Positions 284 to 13,646 of a stretch of 17,281 nucleotides of DNA are shown here, piece after piece. A program made the translations under genes and the position numbers. The notes below the pieces were generated by a model. The model made no database searches and was not told where the DNA came from. It saw only the letters and a list, made by a program, of their open reading frames with translations. Source of the stretch: Cyanobacteria bacterium UBA11153. GTDB taxonomy: Bacteria; Cyanobacteriota; Cyanobacteriia; Cyanobacteriales; Coleofasciculaceae. Location of the stretch: NCBI GenBank assembly GCA_003511885.1, contig DOIX01000022.1, positions 1 to 17,281 on the forward strand. Direction: 5' to 3'. Within the stretch, counting starts at the first letter, position 1. Each line of letters opens with the position of its first letter.

Positions 284-1876
284 TTACCTCACATTTTTTA
301 AACTATCCAATTTCTTCACAAACAAATCGCTAAAAATACTCATGACAGTCCGCTGCCTTACCTTAATATTAACACTAACAGACATCCCGGATTGCAATTC
401 CACTTCACCCAATTTACCCTTATTCACAGAAATTGACTGTTTATCAATTTTGATCTCCGCTGGAAAACGGTAAAATGGGTAAATTTCATCTGGCGGCAAA
501 GCATCGGAGCCAATTCTCACTAATTTACCTTTAATATCGCCAAATTCACTATAAGGAAACGAATCAACCCGCACATCTACATCAATCTCTTTTTTAGAAT
601 TAATATCCATCTCTCCCTTAATAAAACCAATATCTCGGTTAGTAATAAATACCTTGGCAATTAAGCCTTCATCTGGAACTATTTTTAAAACTGGTTCGCT
701 GGTATTAGCGACAAAACCAGGGCTTTTAGCTTTAAGTTCAAAAACTGTACCTGTGACTGGTGAAACTAAGTCTTGATATTTTAAAGTCAACTTAGTTTGG
801 CTAATTTGGCTATCAATTTCTCGGATTTTTTTATTATTTTCGACAATAATTTTTGTGATCTGGCTATTAATATCAGAAATTCTCTTGTCGTTATCGGATA
901 TTTTAGCACGTACATCAGTTTCAGATAAAGATTTTGTATTTTTTAATTTTTCTCTGGCTTGTTCGATTGCTAATCTTAAACGTTCTTCTTCTTGGGTTAA
1001 ACGAATTACATCAGCTTTACTACTGGTAACTTCCTGCTGCTGCTTCAAAAATTGAAGGCGAGCAAACCCTCCTTCTTTTACCAAAGGTTCTATGTTTGTG
1101 ACAATTTCTTGATTGACAGATAGGATATTTCTTGCATTAGCTAACTGTATTGTAGTTTGACTAAGCTGCTGGGTTAGTTGTTGGACTTCCAATTCAGCAG
1201 CAGCTTCGCGAGATCGCCGTTCATCTAGAATAGATTGTAAGCGCAGTTGTTGTTCTGAATTTAATCCTGTACCAGTAATATCTTCTTGTAATTGAGCTTG
1301 GTATAGTTTATTTTCTGAGATTAAAGATGCCCGATTTTCGGTCAGCGATATCATTTCTGGTGATATACGCAACGACGTTTTTTCTAAAAATTTACTACCA
1401 GTACCTTGAAGCTGACTGATGTAGAATTGATTTTCTTGAAGCAGGGATTCTCGAATTTTTTGTAATGATTGAAATTGAGCTTCAGCAGCAGTTTGGTCAA
1501 ATGTCAATAGGCGATCTCCTACTTCTACCCGTTGCCCTTCTTTCACGTCAATTGTTTTAACTACTCCAGCAATAGGGGCTTGTACGTCTTTGACTGCACC
1601 TTTGGGTTCCAATTTTCCTTGTGCGGGAATTGCTTCATCAATTTTCGCGAAATAAGCCCAAATAAGCGTGGAAGCCGTTACTCCGACAATTGCCCAAACA
1701 ATACATCGGGACCATATCGGAGATTGTTGTAAAATTACAGGTCGATCGAATTCTGCTTCTCTGCCAAAATGATTCGATCTTCCTCTATGATTATTTCCTG
1801 AATCAGACAGCAAAGGTCGATTTTGTCTCCGTCTTGTTGTAGCTGAGTTAGGTTGAGAGCCATTGGGACTGTTCAT
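284..1876 (-). CDS. HlyD-family periplasmic adaptor of a type I secretion system
   Basis: Membrane fusion protein of 530 residues that would link the inner-membrane ABC exporter to an outer-membrane TolC-like channel. A polar cytoplasmic N-terminus (1-52) precedes one transmembrane helix (about 56-76). The first half of a lipoyl/barrel-sandwich motif follows (about 90-128), then a long Gln/Glu-rich coiled-coil hairpin (about 130-365), the second half-motif (around LVSPVTGTVFEL) and a C-terminal beta-barrel region. This is the usual HlyD order; the length is slightly above E. coli HlyD. The gene is last in the isomerase-exporter-adaptor set. The start ATG at 1874-1876 abuts an 11-unit heptamer tract and has no Shine-Dalgarno, so translation may depend on the upstream genes. 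The family call is secure, the substrate unknown. Confidence 0.9.
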   Translation of the reverse strand: MNSPNGSQPNSATTRRRQNRPLLSDSGNNHRGRSNHFGREAEFDRPVILQQSPIWSRCIVWAIVGVTASTLIWAYFAKIDEAIPAQGKLEPKGAVKDVQAPIAGVVKTIDVKEGQRVEVGDRLLTFDQTAAEAQFQSLQKIRESLLQENQFYISQLQGTGSKFLEKTSLRISPEMISLTENRASLISENKLYQAQLQEDITGTGLNSEQQLRLQSILDERRSREAAAELEVQQLTQQLSQTTIQLANARNILSVNQEIVTNIEPLVKEGGFARLQFLKQQQEVTSSKADVIRLTQEEERLRLAIEQAREKLKNTKSLSETDVRAKISDNDKRISDINSQITKIIVENNKKIREIDSQISQTKLTLKYQDLVSPVTGTVFELKAKSPGFVANTSEPVLKIVPDEGLIAKVFITNRDIGFIKGEMDINSKKEIDVDVRVDSFPYSEFGDIKGKLVRIGSDALPPDEIYPFYRFPAEIKIDKQSISVNKGKLGEVELQSGMSVSVNIKVRQRTVMSIFSDLFVKKLDSLKNVR

Positions 1877-1880
1877 AGTT

Positions 1881-1957
1881 AGTTGATAGTTGATAGTTGA
1901 TAGTTGATGGTTGATAATTGATAGTTAATAATTGATAATTGATAGTTGATAGTTACT
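1881..1957. repeat. Heptanucleotide tandem repeat (AGTTGAT)n, 11 units
   Basis: Eleven exact 7-bp steps of AGTTGAT and close variants (GGTTGAT, AATTGAT, AGTTAAT) run from 1881 to 1957. This is a short tandemly repeated repetitive (STRR) sequence of the cyanobacterial type. It occupies the gap between the exporter and hlyD and touches the hlyD start, leaving no room for a normal ribosome binding site. Confidence 0.9.
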
Positions 1958-1970
1958 TGAATTTACTTCC

Positions 1971-2005
1971 TGTCAACTGTCAACTGTCAACTGTCCATTG
2001 TCCAT
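1971..2005. repeat. Heptanucleotide tandem repeat (TGTCAAC/TGTCCAT), 5 units
   Basis: Three TGTCAAC units are followed by two TGTCCAT units, in perfect 7-bp register, ending four bases before the exporter stop codon. It is a second STRR family in the same intergenic gap; TGTCAAC is almost the complement of the neighbouring AGTTGAT unit, so the two tracts could pair in RNA. Confidence 0.85.
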
Positions 2006-2008
2006 TGT

Positions 2009-5000
2009 TTAAAGTTGTGCTTCTTGTTGTTGATAGAGGCAATAATACCTGCCATGAAGTTCCATTAATTGATGGTGGGTTCCTTGTTCGACTACGGCAC
2101 CTTTATCCATCATTAAAATGTGATGGCTGCTGCGAATTGTGGTGAGACGGTGGGTGATGAAAAAGACTGTTCGTCCGCGAAATGCTTCGATTAAATTTAA
2201 ACAAACTTGCCTTTCTGTTTCGTAGTCTAAGGCACTGGTAGCTTCATCTAAAATTAGTAGTTGGGGATTTTGGAGGATAGTGCGCGCGATCGCAATTCGT
2301 TGTCTTTGTCCTCCAGAAAGTGCCGATCCTCTCTCTCCTACTTTGGTATTATAACCGCTCGATAAGCCCATGATAAAGTCATGGGCACAGGCAACCTTGG
2401 CTGCCTCAATAATTTCTTCAGCAGTGGCTTCGGGATTAGTTAGAGCAATATTTTCTTGTACTGTGCCGTCGAATAAGAGACTATCTTGGGGTACAATTCC
2501 TACCTGACGGCGGAGCGAATATAATTCTACTTTACTGATATCGTATTGATCGATGAGAATTCGTCCGGAGTTAAGATCGTAGAGGCGAGGTAGGAGTTTC
2601 ATTAAGGTACTTTTACCGGAACCACTTTGACCAACTATACCGACAAATACGCCAGCGGGAAACTCTAAGTTAATATTTGTTAATTGTAAGGGACCTGTTT
2701 GCCCAAAGCGGAAGGAAACATTTTCATAAGTTACTGCCCCTTTAATTACGGGCATCGGAATGTTATATCGATCTTCTTCATCTGCTTCTTGAGGATGATC
2801 GATAATATCGCTTAAACGTTCCAATGATAGGGCAGTTTCTTGGAAGTTTTGCCAAATTCTGGCTAAACGTAATAAGGGGCTAGTGACATAGCCGGAAATA
2901 ATCCGGAAAGCAATTAATTCTCCCAAGGTTAATTTCTGATCTAAAACTAAATATGCTCCTACCCAGAGAACTAATAAAGCTGAAAGTTTGTTGAGAAAGT
3001 CACTAGCGGAGCCTGCTGTTGTGGATGTGATGACTGTTTTGAAACCCGCCGATACATACCGGGCATAACGTTCCTGCCATTGCCAGCGCGATCGCAATTC
3101 TATATTTTGTGCCTTAACTGTTTGAATTCCTGAGAGTACTTCCACTAGATAAGATTGAGTTTCGGCGTTTCTTTCGGCCTTGACTCGTAATTGACGGCGT
3201 ACAATTGGCGAAACAATTATCGTTAATAATATAAATAAGGGAATTGTCGCCAGTGCCACCAGCGTCAGAAGCCAACTATAAATAAACATTACGGCAATAT
3301 AAATTACCGAAAAAATCGCATCTAGCACCACAGTCAGCGCTGTTCCTGTGAGAAACTGACGGATATTTTCTAATTCATTAATCCGGCTGGAAAGTTCCCC
3401 CACCGGACGTTTTTCAAAGTATCGCAGCGGCAATCGCAAAAGATGATCGATAATTTCCGAACCTAAAGCCATGTCAATCCGATTGGTGGTATCGACGAAC
3501 AAATAAGTCCGCAAGCTAGACAGAATTGCCTCAAAGACTGCCACCACTAACAGAAAAACACCTAAAATATGCAAAGTATCAATACTGTTTTGGACAATTA
3601 CTTTATCGATAATAATCTGAATCATCAAGGGATTTGCCAGTCCGAATAACTGTACAAAAAAGGAAGCGATCAAAACTTCCAATAACACATGACGATATTT
3701 AACCAAAGATGGTAAAAACCACTGCAAACCAAAGCGTTGTTGGGGAGTTTGCTTTGTCCGTTGTAGCAATAAAACTTGAATAACTTCCTCATTCCCACCT
3801 TCACCCTCACTCAAGAGTAAAATATCGAGCGCATCTGCCATTCTGCGCCGCACGATCCCAATTTCCGGTACTCCCAAGACAATACCCCTGTCGCTGACTT
3901 CGTAAATGACAGCAAAACTCTCATTCCAGCGCACTAAAGCTGGCACTTCCACGCGACTCATCGCTGAGGGAGGTAAGGAAACTAATTGGGCATGTAACCC
4001 CAATAAATCTGCTACTGCACCGCAAAGAGGTAAAGATAAACTGCCAGTACGAGCCATTTGATCTCCCATGACTCGTAGTACCACATCTTTGCGGAAAGGC
4101 ATCTCCAAATATTGACTAATCATTTGGAAGCAAGCTGCGCCTCCATTTAACATTCCTCTCCCCCGAAAATGGGGATATTTTCTACCTTTACTATAAGTAT
4201 CTTCTCGATTTTCTCTAGGTGGTGGTGGTTGAGTATCTGCATCGATAATCTCAATCGAGTCATTTCTTTCTTGTTGGTTATCAGTTGTGAGTTGTTGGTT
4301 AGTGGTTGTAAGGTTTCCGTTGTTTGTGACTGGCTCAAGTACTTCTGCTTCCTTAACTTCTAACTCCACATCCCATATTTCTGACAAATCAGCTTTCCGA
4401 AAACCCACAATTCTGGCTGGAATATTTCCCAGCAACTTAATCGGAGACGAACCCTCTATTGAACTAAGTTTACTGCCAACCGGAAAATCTGCAAGAGTTC
4501 CACCACCACTCACAAACCATTCGCGATCGCTATCCAGTCGATCGGGCGTAGTTTTCCGATCTTCAATATATCGCACTACGGCTTCTGGGTAAGCTGTAGA
4601 TGCTAATTCTTTGAGATTAATTCCACCATTAGCTTGTCTGGCTAACTCAGCCCCCAGCAAAGTAAAAGCTTCAATGAGAGTACAGCGCTCTTGGAAAGCT
4701 GCTACCACTGATGGCTCTTGCGCCATTATTGACAAAAAATCCATCCCATTAAATGTTAAGCAGATAGACTCTTCAGATGCGATCGCAGTTTCGCACGCTA
4801 TTCCCCTAATTAAACTTACCCACCCTAAAATAGCCCCAGGTTTGAGCAAGCCTAGGGTAACAGGTTGTGGCGTGCGCGGATCGTAACCCAACAAACGCGC
4901 CTTTCCTTCGTATAAAATCGAAACTTGGCCAGGCATTTTATCTGATGTTAAGATCGGTTTACCGAACCCGTAACGTAACAGTTGGCTTTTTTCCGACAAC

Positions 5001-5083
5001 TTAGCGATTGTTGCAGGAGTTAGTCTATCAAAAGGAAATAACTTTTTGAGAAAATCTTGAATATTTGCTTTGGTGTAAGTCAT
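2009..5083 (-). CDS. Type I secretion ABC exporter with cNMP-fold and degenerate C39-like domains
   Basis: Inner-membrane ABC exporter of 1024 residues, a fused permease-ATPase. Domains in order: a cNMP-binding-like beta-roll (about 10-140); a linker with a Gln/Asn/Thr stretch (about 250-272) encoded by heptamer-like repeats; a C39 peptidase-like domain (about 303-440); a six-helix transmembrane domain (about 465-745); and the nucleotide-binding domain. The last has Walker A GQSGSGKST (818-826), signature LSGGQRQ (922-928), Walker B LLILDEATSALD (942-953) and the His loop (H978). ATPase motifs look intact. The C39 triad does not: the Cys position is Gly314 in NGGAAC, the His region reads WNESF and the Asp-Pro reads VP. 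The cNMP cassette reads LGWVSL and CETA in place of the usual GE and RTA. It probably moves unprocessed substrates, like HlyB. Operon partners are the isomerase (5175-5894) and hlyD. Confidence 0.9.
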   Translation of the reverse strand: MTYTKANIQDFLKKLFPFDRLTPATIAKLSEKSQLLRYGFGKPILTSDKMPGQVSILYEGKARLLGYDPRTPQPVTLGLLKPGAILGWVSLIRGIACETAIASEESICLTFNGMDFLSIMAQEPSVVAAFQERCTLIEAFTLLGAELARQANGGINLKELASTAYPEAVVRYIEDRKTTPDRLDSDREWFVSGGGTLADFPVGSKLSSIEGSSPIKLLGNIPARIVGFRKADLSEIWDVELEVKEAEVLEPVTNNGNLTTTNQQLTTDNQQERNDSIEIIDADTQPPPPRENREDTYSKGRKYPHFRGRGMLNGGAACFQMISQYLEMPFRKDVVLRVMGDQMARTGSLSLPLCGAVADLLGLHAQLVSLPPSAMSRVEVPALVRWNESFAVIYEVSDRGIVLGVPEIGIVRRRMADALDILLLSEGEGGNEEVIQVLLLQRTKQTPQQRFGLQWFLPSLVKYRHVLLEVLIASFFVQLFGLANPLMIQIIIDKVIVQNSIDTLHILGVFLLVVAVFEAILSSLRTYLFVDTTNRIDMALGSEIIDHLLRLPLRYFEKRPVGELSSRINELENIRQFLTGTALTVVLDAIFSVIYIAVMFIYSWLLTLVALATIPLFILLTIIVSPIVRRQLRVKAERNAETQSYLVEVLSGIQTVKAQNIELRSRWQWQERYARYVSAGFKTVITSTTAGSASDFLNKLSALLVLWVGAYLVLDQKLTLGELIAFRIISGYVTSPLLRLARIWQNFQETALSLERLSDIIDHPQEADEEDRYNIPMPVIKGAVTYENVSFRFGQTGPLQLTNINLEFPAGVFVGIVGQSGSGKSTLMKLLPRLYDLNSGRILIDQYDISKVELYSLRRQVGIVPQDSLLFDGTVQENIALTNPEATAEEIIEAAKVACAHDFIMGLSSGYNTKVGERGSALSGGQRQRIAIARTILQNPQLLILDEATSALDYETERQVCLNLIEAFRGRTVFFITHRLTTIRSSHHILMMDKGAVVEQGTHHQLMELHGRYYCLYQQQEAQL
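4267..4330. repeat. In-frame heptamer-like repeat in the exporter linker
   Basis: On the minus strand the coding sequence can be parsed as roughly 7-bp steps ACTAACC, AACAACT, CACAACT, GATAACC, AACAAGA, encoding the segment TTTNQQLTTDNQQ between the cNMP-like and C39-like domains. Units are diverged, so this is less certain than the intergenic tracts, but base content and step match the STRRs nearby. Confidence 0.55.
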
Positions 5084-5090
5084 TAATTTC

Positions 5091-5154
5091 AGGGACTAGG
5101 GACTAGGGACTAAGAAATGGGTTTTGAGTAGTCACTTTTGACTTTTGACTTTTG
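5091..5154. repeat. Two short heptamer tracts, (AGGGACT)3 and (ACTTTTG)3
   Basis: AGGGACT is repeated three times at 5091-5111 and ACTTTTG three times at 5134-5154, both in exact 7-bp register. They fill the 91-bp gap between the isomerase stop and the exporter start. No Shine-Dalgarno is visible in front of the exporter ATG. Confidence 0.85.
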
Positions 5155-5174
5155 ACTTATCCACTCCCCATTAT

Positions 5175-5894
5175 TTAACTAATCTTTGTTTGTTTAACTT
5201 GTTCTTGCACCCAGCTATTAAATAGCTCGTCGGTTAGCTGCCGACGCATTTGGTCATCTAGTTGGGCGGGAAAAAACTTCTCTAGTCGTACAATGATAAA
5301 CCATTCTCCCAGACGAGTAGGAGGCCATAATTGACCAGGTTGGCTCACTCTAAGCATCTGAGCCAACATTGGATGGGGGAAATTCAGTTGCACAGGTCCA
5401 ATTAAGCCTCCCGTTTGTACTTCTGGCCCTTGGGAATATTCTTTCGCCAAGTCGCTAAAAGACTGTTCCCCTTCTTGGATGCGGAAGTACAGCTCTTGTG
5501 CCATCGCCCCATCCTTTGTCCGGAGGAGAGAATAAATTGCTCTGTCTAACATTTCTTTCCGTTTGAGGAAATAGGAATCTATTTTATTTGCCCAATTTAA
5601 TTGTTTAAATTTTTCGATCTTTATTCCTCTATCTACTAACTCTTCAACTTGTTCGTTAGTCATGTTTTGACGTTCCAGCCATGCCAACCGGTCGGCCTCC
5701 GTCATTAGCTGATTCCGTTCGTAAAACTGCTGACAAGCTAAGGTTTTTTCTTCTGGAGTACAATCTATAGCGGTAATTGCTCCATCAACAATAATTTCCC
5801 GCAGTAGTTGAGGGAGTAATTGATATTTGGCTAAGAGCGGAATTAGTTCTTCAGCCGCGATCGTGCGATCTCCTACCTGTAAAACGCTATTCAT
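5175..5894 (-). CDS. PpiC/parvulin-type peptidylprolyl isomerase, first gene of the secretion operon
   Basis: A 239-residue protein with a helical N-terminal part resembling the SurA/PpiC chaperone segment (about 1-120) and a parvulin domain (about 125-215). Recognisable parvulin elements are FSDLAKEYSQGPEVQTGGLIGP, with the DLA...S...GG pattern, then FPHPMLAQML and the terminal strand GEWFIIVRLEKF. The family catalyses cis-trans isomerisation at prolines. No signal peptide or membrane helix is visible, so unlike SurA it should be cytoplasmic, where it could keep exporter substrates unfolded or export-competent; this role is inferred from the operon. It lies 91 bp upstream of the exporter on the same strand. 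The start ATG at 5892-5894 lacks a strong Shine-Dalgarno. Confidence 0.85.
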   Translation of the reverse strand: MNSVLQVGDRTIAAEELIPLLAKYQLLPQLLREIIVDGAITAIDCTPEEKTLACQQFYERNQLMTEADRLAWLERQNMTNEQVEELVDRGIKIEKFKQLNWANKIDSYFLKRKEMLDRAIYSLLRTKDGAMAQELYFRIQEGEQSFSDLAKEYSQGPEVQTGGLIGPVQLNFPHPMLAQMLRVSQPGQLWPPTRLGEWFIIVRLEKFFPAQLDDQMRRQLTDELFNSWVQEQVKQTKIS

Positions 5895-8578: not shown

Positions 8579-9028
8579 TTAACCCCATTCATCCAATTCG
8601 GCTGTAGGATCTCCTACCATCATATTGGGGCTAATTAAGGTGATGTCAAACTCATCGGGTGGCCCAGTTGGGACAGCATCTCGCTTGAGTACATAATATT
8701 TAGCACTCACCTGGGGACCGAAGATCACTTCGTCCTCATCTTCGAGATCGTGGGCTTGAGTCTTTTTACTGTTAATCAAGAGTCCATTTGCACTTGCCTT
8801 GCCCTTGAGATTGCCATCAACAATTCGATAGTAGAAACTACCGTCCTCGCGCTGTCGGCGCACTAGGGTGGCATGTCGGCGGGAGACAAACTGGGAACAG
8901 AGGCGAATATCCGAATCTGGATCTCTGCCGATGGAGTAGACAGCTTCTTTTAAGGGAAATTCTCTACGTCCCTGATCGTCTTCAATAATTAGCAAATGAT
9001 GGTGAACTGAATTTGATTTTGGAGGCAT
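8579..9028 (-). CDS. FHA-domain protein
   Basis: A 149-residue protein made almost entirely of one forkhead-associated domain (about 12-115), which binds phosphothreonine peptides. Hallmarks are visible: SIGRDPDSDI with Gly34-Arg35, the VSRRHA core with Ser49 and His52, and NG at 81-82. No kinase or second domain is attached. The tail (116-149) is acidic and carries DITLISP and PTAELDEWG, where threonines could be phosphorylated and bound by its own or another FHA domain; this is inference. It sits alone, convergent with the 8028 gene and downstream of the omega-RNA-like copy B on the same strand. No Shine-Dalgarno is evident. Confidence 0.88.
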   Translation of the reverse strand: MPPKSNSVHHHLLIIEDDQGRREFPLKEAVYSIGRDPDSDIRLCSQFVSRRHATLVRRQREDGSFYYRIVDGNLKGKASANGLLINSKKTQAHDLEDEDEVIFGPQVSAKYYVLKRDAVPTGPPDEFDITLISPNMMVGDPTAELDEWG

Positions 9029-9339
9029 CGAAAAACAGGGATTGGATGGAGTTGGTTGCTGAAAAATATTTTGGCTTTTTTCGGGAACCAGAACTAGCAG
9101 TGGTAAAATTATCGCACCAGTTTTCCCGATTGAGGTCGATAGCTACAATTTCCGACTAGATCTAGAGACAGGCGTTTCGCCTGTTCCCAGAATTTACACT
9201 GATAGGGATGCTCCCATAAAATTAATATATTATGTTGATTTACCCTACTCCTGATGACTCTTGATAATTAGAGTTCCCGATCCTTTTAACCCAGACATTG
9301 GCGGACATCAGAAATATTCTGAAGATAAATATACAATGT
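9029..9339. other. Upstream region of the FHA gene, with an ACAGGCG hairpin
   Basis: Non-coding stretch that must contain the FHA promoter on the minus strand unless it is read through from iscB. It holds a perfect 7-bp hairpin ACAGGCG-TTT-CGCCTGT (9168-9174 and 9178-9184), which looks like a dispersed cyanobacterial palindrome, and a weaker ACTCT/AGAGT hairpin (9257-9261 and 9270-9274). No ORF of interest is seen. Confidence 0.5.
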
Positions 9340-9502
9340 CACTAGACAGATGTTTAATCCTTGGATTCTAGTGCTGCACACTGGTTCAGGCATTTGTAGG
9401 TAGGAACTTTAACACTTGCTCTGAAGGGAGTTCTCTTAGAACTTAGGCTGGTCAGGTTTGAGCTTTATTCAAGCCCCCGCATTCTATGGGTGGGGTTCCT
9501 GA
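9340..9502 (-). ncRNA. Omega-RNA (HEARO)-like copy B, without its own nuclease gene
   Basis: This region aligns along its length with the sequence upstream of iscB (copy A). Shared plus-strand blocks come in the same order: TTCTAG, then GTAGGTAG or GGTAGG with CTTTAACACTTGC (about 9397-9419), then CTTAGGCTGG (9442-9451), an AGCTTTA block, and a C-rich/G-rich hairpin (CCCCCGC around 9475-9480 and TGGGGTT at 9490-9496). The internal loop differs (CTCTGAAGGGAG instead of CCGATAACGTAG), so it is a diverged copy, not a recent duplicate. It begins about 30 bp after the iscB stop on the same strand and could be cut from the iscB transcript. No iscB follows it; the next gene is FHA. By family precedent the guide would be the roughly 16 bases just above 9500. 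Confidence 0.6.
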
Positions 9503-9531
9503 CATATACTAGAGCAGCGTATCTGGGAACG

Positions 9532-10911
9532 TCAAGTTGACTCATCAGAATACCTCCGTCGCTGGAAACTCCGTGTATGCGAGACCGGAGAGGAAAGCGC
9601 GGCAGCGAATTTATTCGCCTCCAGTCTTGAAAATCCATAACCATAGCCATCCTTTTGATGAATTTGTTGGCAGTGTTTGTAACTGATTCCTTGAACCAGT
9701 CCGTTTGTTGTTGAAATATTGAAACTACCAGTAGATCGCACAGCAACTCTTCCTGTATAAGTTCCAATCTTTTTTCCAGAAGTAACAATTGCTTTGACAA
9801 TGTCACCCGTTTGAAAACCTTTCACAAACTTGAATTGAGTGACATAGCGTGAGGGGAATCCAAACTTATCAGTACGGCACATTTGCCTTGAGCCATGTCC
9901 TGTTGCCTTGATTAACAATGGTTGATTAGCTAATACCAAAAGTTCTGGGGTATCGCCTACACAAGCAGCATCAAAGAAATGAGTTTTAGATAGTTGTAAT
10001 CGAGTTCTGTTAAATTTGGTTAAGCCCCCTGAACCTGTGGCAACTTCTAGCCCCGTTTTTTTTAACCGATTAAATAATGACCAGCGAGTTGAATTAACTG
10101 CGGCTGCATCTTTTAACGGTTGTTTAGCTTGAGCTAAAACCTTTTTCAAGACATCAGGCTTTTTCTTGAGAAATTCTTCAATGTTTTTCGTTCCTTTCTT
10201 GATGTTGCAAGGTTCGCAAGCCAAACACAAATTAGAAACTCGGTTTGTACCGCCTTTGGCTTTAGGGTGGATATGCTCAATCTGTAATGGTATATTCTCA
10301 ATGCCACAGTAAGCGCATTTTCTCTCCCATTTGTTAAGTAGGTACTCGCGAACCTCGTAGCCTGCTAATCCACCCTGTTGGTATTCAATCCCTGATATTT
10401 CAGGATTGTCCATTTGCTGTAAATCAAACCTGACTAGCTCTTGAGCAACAACGTTAATCGGTCCTGACCTAGTTAACTTTTTAACCCAGGTTAGTGTTGT
10501 TTCAACCCGATGCTGAAGACTTGGCGCTAACCAACCGTTGAAACGGGTACGATTCAAAAATCGGGCTTGACGATAACGAGTATGTCGATTTCTGCGACCA
10601 CGACGCAATGAGTGCCTTGACTCTAGAGATGCTTTGATTGTTTGACCACGATGTGTTAGTTCTGCTACCCAAAGCAAATTGCAGCCAGAAAGTATTGCTA
10701 ATCCTGTGGTCTTAGAGCCAGGATCAATTTTCAAAGTTAATGGTTCCGGGATTTCAACCACCTCCTTATTTAAAATGATTGCGAACGGATACAATCTGAA
10801 AACTTTAGCCTTGCCAGCATTTAGTAACTTACGTGCTATTGATGGCTTGCAAGGTGTTAAAGGTTTCCGATTAGTATCAAGAACAAATGCGTAATTGGGT
10901 TGATTAGACAT
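9532..10911 (-). CDS. iscB: IscB, RNA-guided RuvC-HNH nuclease
   Basis: A 459-residue IscB, the omega-RNA-guided nuclease of IS200/IS605-like elements related to Cas9. In order: the PLMP domain, here PLTPCKPSIARKLL (17-30); RuvC-I with Asp63 in DPGSKTTGLA; an Arg-rich bridge helix RRGRRNRH (103-110, matching the RRXRR family); RuvC-II with Glu158 in QELVRFD; an HNH domain with CxxC 199/202, EHIHPKAKGG (His213), Asn227 and CxxC 232/235; RuvC-III HFFDAACVG (His311, Asp314); and a C-terminal region ending DGYGYGF (421-427). All catalytic residues are visible, so it should be active. ATG 10911 is chosen because the PLMP domain follows at once and AAGAAGAG precedes it; the frame opens at 10974. 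Residues after about 427 come from element-end DNA. HNH distinguishes it from TnpB and IsrB. Confidence 0.93.
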   Translation of the reverse strand: MSNQPNYAFVLDTNRKPLTPCKPSIARKLLNAGKAKVFRLYPFAIILNKEVVEIPEPLTLKIDPGSKTTGLAILSGCNLLWVAELTHRGQTIKASLESRHSLRRGRRNRHTRYRQARFLNRTRFNGWLAPSLQHRVETTLTWVKKLTRSGPINVVAQELVRFDLQQMDNPEISGIEYQQGGLAGYEVREYLLNKWERKCAYCGIENIPLQIEHIHPKAKGGTNRVSNLCLACEPCNIKKGTKNIEEFLKKKPDVLKKVLAQAKQPLKDAAAVNSTRWSLFNRLKKTGLEVATGSGGLTKFNRTRLQLSKTHFFDAACVGDTPELLVLANQPLLIKATGHGSRQMCRTDKFGFPSRYVTQFKFVKGFQTGDIVKAIVTSGKKIGTYTGRVAVRSTGSFNISTTNGLVQGISYKHCQQIHQKDGYGYGFSRLEANKFAAALSSPVSHTRSFQRRRYSDEST

Positions 10912-10959
10912 TGTTGTGTCTCTTCTTTTCAGTAACGTTAGCTTCGCCAATGTTATCGG

Positions 10960-11158
10960 TCGGTAACTATCCAAAAAGCACTGTTTCAGTGACCTTAAAA
11001 CTGTTTAACTTTTCGGTTCTAGAGCAGTGGACTAGCTACGCATCCACTGGTAGGTTCTTTAACACTTGCCGATAACGTAGTCAGTTAAGACTTAGGCTGG
11101 TAAGCACGGCTTTAGCTAATTTCTTGGCCAAAGCCCCGTGTCTTCAGACCGGGGTTGC
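10960..11158 (-). ncRNA. Omega-RNA (HEARO) upstream of iscB, copy A
   Basis: Position and structure fit the omega-RNA that guides IscB: it lies on the same strand between the element's left end and the nuclease gene. The 5' hairpin has arms CCCCG and CGGGG (11134-11138 and 11150-11154) that can be extended inward by GTCT/AGAC. A conserved core follows (CTTAGGCTGG 11091-11100, TTTAACACTTGC 11058-11069 on the plus strand), then a perfect 7-bp hairpin CAGTGGA/TCCACTG (11025-11031 and 11043-11049). CCGATAAC at 11069-11076 can pair with GTTATCGG at 10952-10959, a possible long-range stem or pseudoknot. The guide is expected immediately 5', within the ATPase codons above about 11158. The 3' boundary is uncertain. 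Confidence 0.75.
10973..10991 (-). terminator. Terminator-like hairpin between omega-RNA and iscB
   Basis: On the minus strand CACTG-AAA-CAGTG is followed by CTTTTT (stem arms 10979-10983 and 10987-10991, T-run 10973-10977). It could end the omega-RNA or attenuate iscB expression so that RNA exceeds mRNA. The stem is only 5 bp, so it may instead be part of the omega-RNA fold. Confidence 0.4.
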
Positions 11159-13646
11159 TTACCTGATAGCGGAGGAGGAGGGAACTGGTGACAACACTAA
11201 CCGAACTAAAAGCCATTAATCCTCCAGCGGTAGCAGGATTGAGAACCATTCCAAATCCGGGTAAAAGGACACCCGCTGCTATGGGAATTCCTACAATATT
11301 GTAGCCTAATGCCCAGAATAGATTATGTTGGATCTTGTTAAAAGTGGCACGGGCTAGTTTAATGGACTCCACAACATCAAGCAAGGAAATATGATGTTTG
11401 CTGTGGGGAGAGTTTGTCTCCCGGATGGCACGACTTTGAGCAACTAGATGGGATCTGAAGCGGCGCGTTAGGATAATATCTGCTGTTTCTACGGCAATAT
11501 CAGTCCCGCCGTCCATGGAAATCCCGACATCGGCTTGGGCTAAGGCGGGACTATCATTGATGCCATCCCCAACCATGGCGACTAAGTATCCTTGAGATTG
11601 TAACTTGGCGATCGCAGCGGCTTTCCCTTCTGGACTAACGGATGCGATCGCATCTTCTGGGTTAATCCCAATTTCTGTGGCGACGGCATGGGCTACTTCT
11701 TCCCGATCCCCGCTCAAGATCATCACTCGTAATCCTAAGTTTCTCAGTCTTTCTACAGTTGCTTTAGCGTCAGGTCTTATTTTGTCTTTTACGGCAATTA
11801 TCCCGGCTAAAACCCCATCTAGAGCCACGTAGACGACTGTTTTACCCTCTCTGGCTAGCCTCTCACCTTCAGCTTGAGCTGTATCATCGATTTTGATACC
11901 TTTTCGATCCAACCAGTTGGGATTGCCAACTAATACTTGTTGATTTTCGACGATCGCGGATATTCCTAATCCTGGTTGGGTATAAAAATCAACAGCCGCT
12001 AATGGCGGTAATCCTTCCTGACGGGCTGCTTGACAAATTGCGATCGCGAGCGGATGAGAAGTACCGCTTTCTGCGGCTGCTGCTAGTTGCAATAGTTTTG
12101 AGGAATCAGTTTTGAGGTTTAATTTAACCGATTCTCTATTCTCCATTCTCGACTCTCCACTCCCCACTCCCCATTCCCCAACTAACAAACAATCTGTTAC
12201 AGTTGGTTCGCCGCTAGTGAGAGTGCCTGTCTTATCAAAAACGATGGTATTAATTTGATGGACTCGTTCTAAAATATCGCCACCTTTGATTAATAAACCT
12301 CGCCTAGCCCCCAGACTGATACCGACTAAAATGGCTGTGGGTGTTGCCAAACCCAAAGCGCAGGGACAAGCAATGACTAAAACGGCGATCGCTAATTTTA
12401 AACTCAGTAATAAGGGAGAAGTGGCATGAGCCATATTATGACCCATATTGTCAGCCATAGGTGACAATATTTCAGGCCAAATTCTCGTCCCTACTAAATC
12501 CCAAAATAAAAAGGTGAGAATCGCGATCGCTAATACCCCTGATGTAAAGTATCCTGCTATGGTATCGGCTAGCTGTTGAATTGGTGCTTTGCGGGTTTGG
12601 GCTGCTTCTACTAGGGCGGCAATCTGAGCTATGGTAGTCTGTTCTCCAGTGCGAGTAGCCACAATTGCGATCGCGCCTGATTGATTTAAAGTACCCGCGC
12701 TAACTGTATCTCCCGGTTGTTTAAATACGGGTATGGCTTCTCCGGTTAACATCGACTCATCTACTGAAGATTTTCCGGATACTACTTCCCCATCTACGGG
12801 AATTTTTTCTCCCGGCAAAACCCGCAACCATTCTCCTACCCGCACTTGTTCGACAGGAATTTCAATTCCTAAGTCTGTGGTGGTTGATTTGCCAATTAAA
12901 CGGGCAATTTTTGGTTTGAGTGCCAATAAGGATTCAAAGGCAGCGGAGGCTTTTCTTCTCGCTCGTTGTTCTAAGGTTCTTCCTAAGAGGATAAAGCCTA
13001 ATAACATCACTGGTTCGTCAAAGAAACACTCCCATCCTATTTGAGGAAATACTAAAGCAATCGAACTGGTAATATAGGCGATCGACGTACCCAGTCCGAT
13101 CGAAGTATTCATGTTAGGGGATCGATGTCTGAAGCTGCGCCAACCATCTATAATTATAGGCCACCCTGGTCCAATTATTGCCGCAGTTGCTAATCCCCAA
13201 TGAAACCAAATATTACTTAATATCGGTAATTTATGAATATCTAACCAATGACCAATATGTCCTATTGTCGATAAAGTAACTAAAATTCCCGCAATAACTA
13301 ATTGCCGCATTTGTCTTTGGGCTTCTCGTTGGTGTCGCTGGGCTAGAGTTAAAGTATCTTGGTGAGTAGAGGCAAGCTCGGATTGAGGAAGACGGGGTTG
13401 AGCAGGAAATCCTGTAGATGTTAATTTTTCGGCTATTAGTATGGGATCGACTGTACCAGATTCACACTCTACCACAGCCACCTCAGTCACGAGATTGACA
13501 CAAGCAGACATAACGCCGGGATAATTGGTTAATTGTCTTTCTACCACCCTGACGCAACCTGCACATTTCATCCCTGTGACATCGAGAGTAATGGTTTCTG
13601 AGGCAATGGATTCTCTTGTTTTTGGTATATCGAGGGACACTTGCAT
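11112..13646 (-). CDS. Copper-transporting P-type ATPase (P1B-1, CopA/PacS type)
   Basis: ATP-driven Cu(I) pump of 844 residues. One N-terminal HMA domain has GMKCAGC (Cys28, Cys31). Then come TGE (301-303), the metal-site CPC (427-429), the phosphorylation motif DKTGTLT with Asp471, HP at 531-532, GDGINDSP (693-700), YN (782-783) and MAFSS (811-815); CPC, YN and MxxSS together define Cu(I) pumps. The loop before the CPC helix is Met/His-rich ([13 protein letters not shown], 397-409). Two in-frame insertions stand out: a 7 x 7 bp repeat in the nucleotide-binding domain (about 490-506) and about 25 residues (729-753) between the normally close ADIIL and LLDVVESI. About 14 terminal residues (831-844) are encoded by the omega-RNA/IS end. 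Import or export, and plasma or thylakoid membrane, cannot be told. Confidence 0.93.
11386..11462. repeat. In-frame palindrome-bearing insertion in the ATPase gene
   Basis: About 75 bp with no counterpart in the usual copper ATPase sequence between ADIIL and LLDVVE. It contains a perfect hairpin GGGAGA-GTTTG-TCTCCC (11406-11411 and 11417-11422). The reading frame is kept and encodes a basic segment including [16 protein letters not shown]. It behaves like a small palindromic mobile repeat that settled inside a coding region, comparable in principle to the in-frame palindromic elements of Rickettsia. Confidence 0.6.
12131..12179. repeat. Heptanucleotide tract, 7 x 7 bp, inside the ATPase gene
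   Basis: Seven exact 7-bp units (ATTCTCT, ATTCTCC, ATTCTCG, ACTCTCC, ACTCCCC twice, ATTCCCC) within the coding sequence. The minus strand encodes [16 protein letters not shown] (about 491-506). The tract is 49 bp and the frame stays open, so either extra bases were gained or the surrounding sequence adjusted. Confidence 0.92.

Follow-up and report, generated by a model that had tools for sequence, protein, structure and literature searches.

HEARO elements insert at ATGA or GTGA sites, and elements encoding IscB or TnpB are retained through guided cutting of the unoccupied site. In 2021, Altae-Tran and colleagues reportedly described omega-RNAs that stand alone, in genomes where IscB genes are less numerous. 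In a nuclease survey, HEARO RNAs are placed 5′ of 65% of the surveyed nucleases (PMC9755519). The report on the OgeuIscB-omega-RNA complex gives the order of the IscB omega-RNA as a 5′ guide, the scaffold and the TAM (PMC9640706), which is the basis for the guide placement used here.

We analysed a stretch of 17,281 nucleotides from Cyanobacteria bacterium UBA11153 (the window), whose minus strand carries, in this order, a heavy-metal ATPase gene, a first HEARO sequence (HEARO1), iscB, a second HEARO sequence (HEARO2) and an FHA-domain gene (Table 1). The locus resembles the described HEARO RNA (RF02033)/IscB OMEGA systems, in that HEARO1 scores above the curated threshold and is followed on its 3′ side by an IscB that contains RRXRR and HNH domains; as in other HEARO elements, the mobile unit ends beside ATGA. 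Unlike in those systems, the ATPase reading frame now continues into omega-RNA DNA, where it meets a stop at 11112, and iscB runs past the stop of its sister copy. The locus was initially annotated as a possible multi-guide locus, in which one nuclease is served by two guide RNAs. We propose, with high confidence, that it is an intact-looking IscB element beside a decayed, independent, iscB-less HEARO copy.

Table 1. Coordinates of the features discussed, numbered along the window.
Feature	Position	Strand	Remarks
Mobile IscB element (HEARO type)	9546..11162	(-)	left end GTAAGC, right end TTCTG
HEARO1, omega-RNA scaffold of the element	10932..11162	(-)	RF02033, 155.6 bits; 62 of the model's 67 pairs are standard
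Expected guide of HEARO1, equal to the 3′ end of the ATPase coding sequence	11163..11179	(-)	placed by analogy with the IscB omega-RNA guide
iscB, 459 aa	9532..10911	(-)	RRXRR and HNH domains
HEARO2, degenerate second HEARO copy outside the mobile unit	9286..9503	(-)	RF02033, 57.9 bits; 47 of the model's 67 pairs are standard
Possible right end of the HEARO2 element, CAGAATATTTCTG then ATG	9309..9321	(-)	similar to the TTCTG-ATGA end of the intact element; no more than suggestive
Would-be guide of HEARO2	9504..9520	(-)	18-nt pattern search
Heavy-metal P-type ATPase gene, cut by the element near its approximate original 3′ end	11163..13646	(-)	Pfam
FHA-domain gene, the next gene downstream of the ATPase gene in most of the relatives compared	8579..9028	(-)	Pfam

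Two homologous HEARO copies and the borders of the mobile unit

Omega-RNA-like sequences do lie on both sides of iscB in one orientation, as first proposed, and the coordinates given for them were about right. The RF02033 match of HEARO1 (E 1.8e-33) is above the curated cut-off of 83 bits, and that of HEARO2 (E 1.1e-9) is under it. The ordered blocks that the copies were said to share were also found, in the form of two direct repeats, one of 21 nt with 90% identity at a spacing of 1650 nt and one of 20 nt with 85% identity at 1649 nt. A covariance model of our own (R1), covering the first half of HEARO and built from 17 copies of the same genome with HEARO1 included and HEARO2 left out, detects HEARO2 over 9503-9364 with 60.3 bits (E 7.6e-11). 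Since both Rfam and a model in which HEARO2 had no part match it, the likeness of the two copies reflects homology, and chance resemblance is ruled out by these E-values. The covariance scan of the downstream copy, suggested in the initial annotation as a check, therefore yields a match, one that stays below the cut-off; the absence of any such match, named there as grounds for refutation, was not observed. HEARO2 is thus related by descent to the HEARO RNA without being a full member of the family.

The ORF lying between the two copies matches Pfam PF14239 (RRXRR) with E 2.9e-70 and PF01844 (HNH) with E 1.2e-9, as well as solved IscBs (best E 1.2e-35; OgeuIscB, 7xht_A, E 4.5e-23). Judged by its sequence, the predicted product combines a RuvC-type (RRXRR) and an HNH domain in one protein within the range of about 400-500 aa expected of an IscB. 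The locus shares with the OgeuIscB-omega-RNA complex (PMC9640706) this protein match and an RNA order in which the 5′ guide is followed by the adaptor hairpin and the nexus. No transposase is apparent among the ORFs of at least 80 aa inside the element.

The borders of the element were obtained from its relatives in the same genome, where the window IscB has 15 matches, several of them weak. The nearest of these lies on contig C242 and has 91% identity; at the DNA level the two loci are 90% identical (1464/1623) between 11162 and 9542, where the alignment stops. A copy without iscB (L004) carries a similar omega-RNA and a right end identical to that of the window element. All three aligned copies read TTCTG-ATGA and diverge thereafter; because ATGA (9545-9542) is common to them, the 3′ border of the element is at 9546 or 9542. 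This ATGA is the sole target-adjacent-motif-like signal seen. The element, consisting of omega-RNA and iscB, is about 1.62 kb long. Within 9532-9630 (-), iscB has a sense codon in place of the TAA of the C242 copy, so that it ends a few codons beyond the element border. HEARO2 starts at 9503, 38 nt beyond 9542 (42 nt if the border is 9546); the unit stops before it, and HEARO2 is therefore a separate, independent element outside the mobile unit. Contig C242 carries a single HEARO only. In a side observation, a cobalamin riboswitch (62.8 bits) was found at L004:422-565, near the iscB-less copy on contig C373.

The same orientation and close spacing of the two copies would also be expected if one element had been duplicated in place, in tandem, and the second copy had then lost its iscB. 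However, a DNA search of the genome with HEARO2 returned sequences on contigs C47 (73%) and C364 (80% over 56 nt) and not HEARO1, the C242 copy matches the HEARO1 element at 90% identity along its entire length, and 38-42 nt of non-element sequence separates the two. A tandem duplication is almost certainly not the origin of this arrangement.

The insertion site and iscB neighbourhoods in related genomes

In the one other genome of the same genus that was compared (G001), the homology of the ATPase gene stops where the element is inserted in the window, and the next BLAST match begins 68 nt further on; this empty site contains neither HEARO1 nor HEARO2. We also compared 28 loci from relatives (L046-L073), each from a different genome, leaving out L074, which had been chosen by its HEARO part. 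The ATPase and FHA genes are adjacent on one strand, 85-720 nt apart, in 25 of the 28, and three (L061, L065 and L069) have no ATPase within the stretch examined. With the element subtracted, 518 nt separates the ends of the two genes in the window. At this place in the 25 loci R1 finds no HEARO beyond a weak match in L047 (11.9 bits, E 0.96). Both HEAROs are absent from this place in the relatives examined, and for this reason we regard both as insertions seen here in their own genome only. Apart from the insertions, the ATPase gene seems to have an in-frame stretch of about 20-26 residues, placed by eye at approximately 11382-11462 (-), that is common to G001, whose match spans 450 nt for 150 residues; the matches of most other relatives are shorter.

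We compared the neighbourhood of iscB in 59 related IscB loci of other genomes; in 56 of them the sequence extends 500 nt or more past the downstream end of the match. Upstream, R1 detects a HEARO in 55 of the 59 (iscB is split in L118), and the four that have none (L128, L129, L133 and L139) are all partial IscB matches. A downstream HEARO was found by R1 in none of the 59 loci, nor in any of 27 family loci outside the window's own genome (L148-L174, scanned from the longer IscB match list), some of which have short flanks; in five of these (L156, L157, L166, L168 and L171) there is no HEARO whatever. The two sets are not independent, because some loci repeat each other, with contigs of equal length occurring in both lists. 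A scan of the 59 loci for the right-end motif gave matches in 4 and settled nothing.

These comparisons bear on the idea of a built-in two-guide locus, in which both omega-RNAs would serve IscB in cis with different guides and be selected as one unit. Such a locus would be consistent with the shared strand, the short distance and the real homology of HEARO1 and HEARO2, and with an adaptor half of HEARO2 that still folds and a central stem that keeps 8 of its 11 pairs (9 of 11 in HEARO1). Nevertheless, HEARO2 lies outside the mobile unit, falls short of the Rfam cut-off and lacks pairs of the nexus stem and 3′ hairpin; no HEARO was found at this place in the 25 relatives' loci, and none downstream of the related iscB genes examined. 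We consider a built-in two-guide locus extremely unlikely, and a conserved design of this kind is rejected on the 59 related loci. The first observation was a good one, with an ordinary cause.

The own genome of the window has 26 HEARO matches, 15 of them over the cut-off. A substantial downstream IscB match accompanies six (L001, L002, L003, L008, L011 and L013), while L010 has an N-terminal IscB stub, L004 a C-terminal stub and L026 a weak overlapping fragment. The other 17, HEARO2 included, have no downstream IscB match in the stretch examined (up to 1.5 kb), and in this they resemble the stand-alone omega-RNAs of Altae-Tran and colleagues; any action in trans of these 17 is putative. Among the matches listed, HEARO is present in 16 of 19 family genomes, the own genome included, with 40 matches in G001. 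As a separate observation, G016 shows, among the matches listed, 44 HEARO and 34 IscB, a strong expansion in one relative.

In such a genome, rich in these elements, neighbouring insertions are unremarkable. That they do occur follows from L085 (Planktothrix sp. PCC 11201), where a second HEARO lies upstream on the opposite strand. Another close pair on the same strand, among the matches listed, is found on contig C302 of G001; there is no IscB match between its copies, and only an N-terminal fragment beyond the second. When 26 sites were placed at random, any two fell within 1.7 kb of each other in 15% of simulations, and did so on one strand in 8%, for a distance chosen after seeing the data and with contig breaks and insertion preference ignored. 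Neighbouring insertions of a common element can thus mimic a multi-guide nuclease locus, and the borders of the second copy, together with the same place in relatives, settle such a case.

Decay of HEARO2 and the putative guides of both copies

The pairs counted on the Rfam alignment (Table 1) exclude the pseudoknot, which is absent from the Rfam model, and the counts are biased towards structure because the alignment was fitted to structure. HEARO2 keeps 18 of 23 pairs in the 5′ half (HEARO1, 21 of 23), 8 of 10 in the hairpin next to the central stem (10 of 10), 2 of 5 in the nexus stem (4 of 5) and 11 of 18 in the long 3′ hairpin (18 of 18). Its losses are greatest in the last two, and the 5′ half is better preserved than the rest. 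In two adaptor-stem pairs of HEARO2 both bases differ from those in HEARO1, as would be seen if compensation had preserved the pairing. The fold z is -1.21 for the first 140 nt of HEARO2 and -2.03 for the first 148 nt of HEARO1. The conserved ACTACGTT block is ACTCCCTT in HEARO2, at a position where a few other copies vary too.

The nexus stem was assigned among the Rfam helices by our own interpretation of the OgeuIscB report. According to that report, changing four bases of the nexus-pseudoknot loop abolished editing, so the RNA core matters (PMC9640706). In contrast to the complex described there, little of the presumed nexus stem is kept in HEARO2. The copy has decayed, and it is probably a poor guide for IscB, if it guides it at all; use of this second RNA by IscB is unlikely. 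Specifically, it is very improbable that RNA is still made from the worn HEARO2 and loaded into the adjacent IscB, giving a site with two guides. If it were, the guides would aim at the empty ATPase site and at an empty intergenic site about 40 nt away, forming a double lock.

HEARO2 might instead be an inner-deleted, iscB-less element that was mobilised and guided in trans by IscB made elsewhere, that came to lie here by chance and whose RNA may still be weakly used. In this genome L004 is such a copy, deleted internally but with omega-RNA and right end kept, and a right-end-like TTCTG-ATG follows HEARO2. Yet HEARO2 reaches only 57.9 bits against 136.5 bits for L004, and its nexus and 3′-hairpin pairs have been lost, which makes this reading improbable as well. 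With 26 HEARO matches but a smaller number of full iscB genes, the genome would be usable for testing whether IscB serves guides in trans.

By analogy with other IscB omega-RNAs, the expected guide of HEARO1 would comprise the approximately 16-17 nt 5′ of the scaffold. Elsewhere in the own genome its 18-nt pattern is nowhere matched exactly; the best other site, on contig C143, has 2 mismatches. The near-matches comprise one with 2 mismatches and six with 3, and their count about equals that of the reversed control pattern (8 vs 7). For the 18-nt pattern of HEARO2, too, the own genome offers no second exact site, and the best is one site with 3 mismatches.

Proposed course of events and further features of the window

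For transcription, guide use, cutting, retention and the order of insertion, we infer a course that follows the preferred reading, an intact-looking element beside a decayed one. In this reading a HEARO-type IscB element, made up of omega-RNA and iscB, inserted near the 3′ end of the heavy-metal ATPase gene, and a second HEARO copy without its own iscB is decaying just past it, in the intergenic stretch that separates the ATPase gene from the FHA gene. Transcription in the direction of the ATPase gene may produce an RNA that begins with the 3′ end of this gene as its guide and whose scaffold, as expected from the family, binds IscB. The IscB-RNA complex could then cut chromosomes without the insertion at the ATPase site, adjoining the ATGA motif, and the element would be retained when the break is repaired from the occupied copy, by analogy with IscB and TnpB elements. 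HEARO2 would be a relic of the same process of insertion and retention.

Elsewhere in the window, Rfam matches to MIR827 and ssnA were dropped as below the cut-off. Beneath the sub-threshold MIR827 match, at 1888-2001, lies an AT-rich short repeat, GATAGTTGAT-like, and we regard the match as chance. From the look of the ORFs only, 284-5894 appears to encode consecutively an HlyD-like protein, an ABC transporter and a PpiC-like protein, a gene row that is perhaps a type I export cluster.
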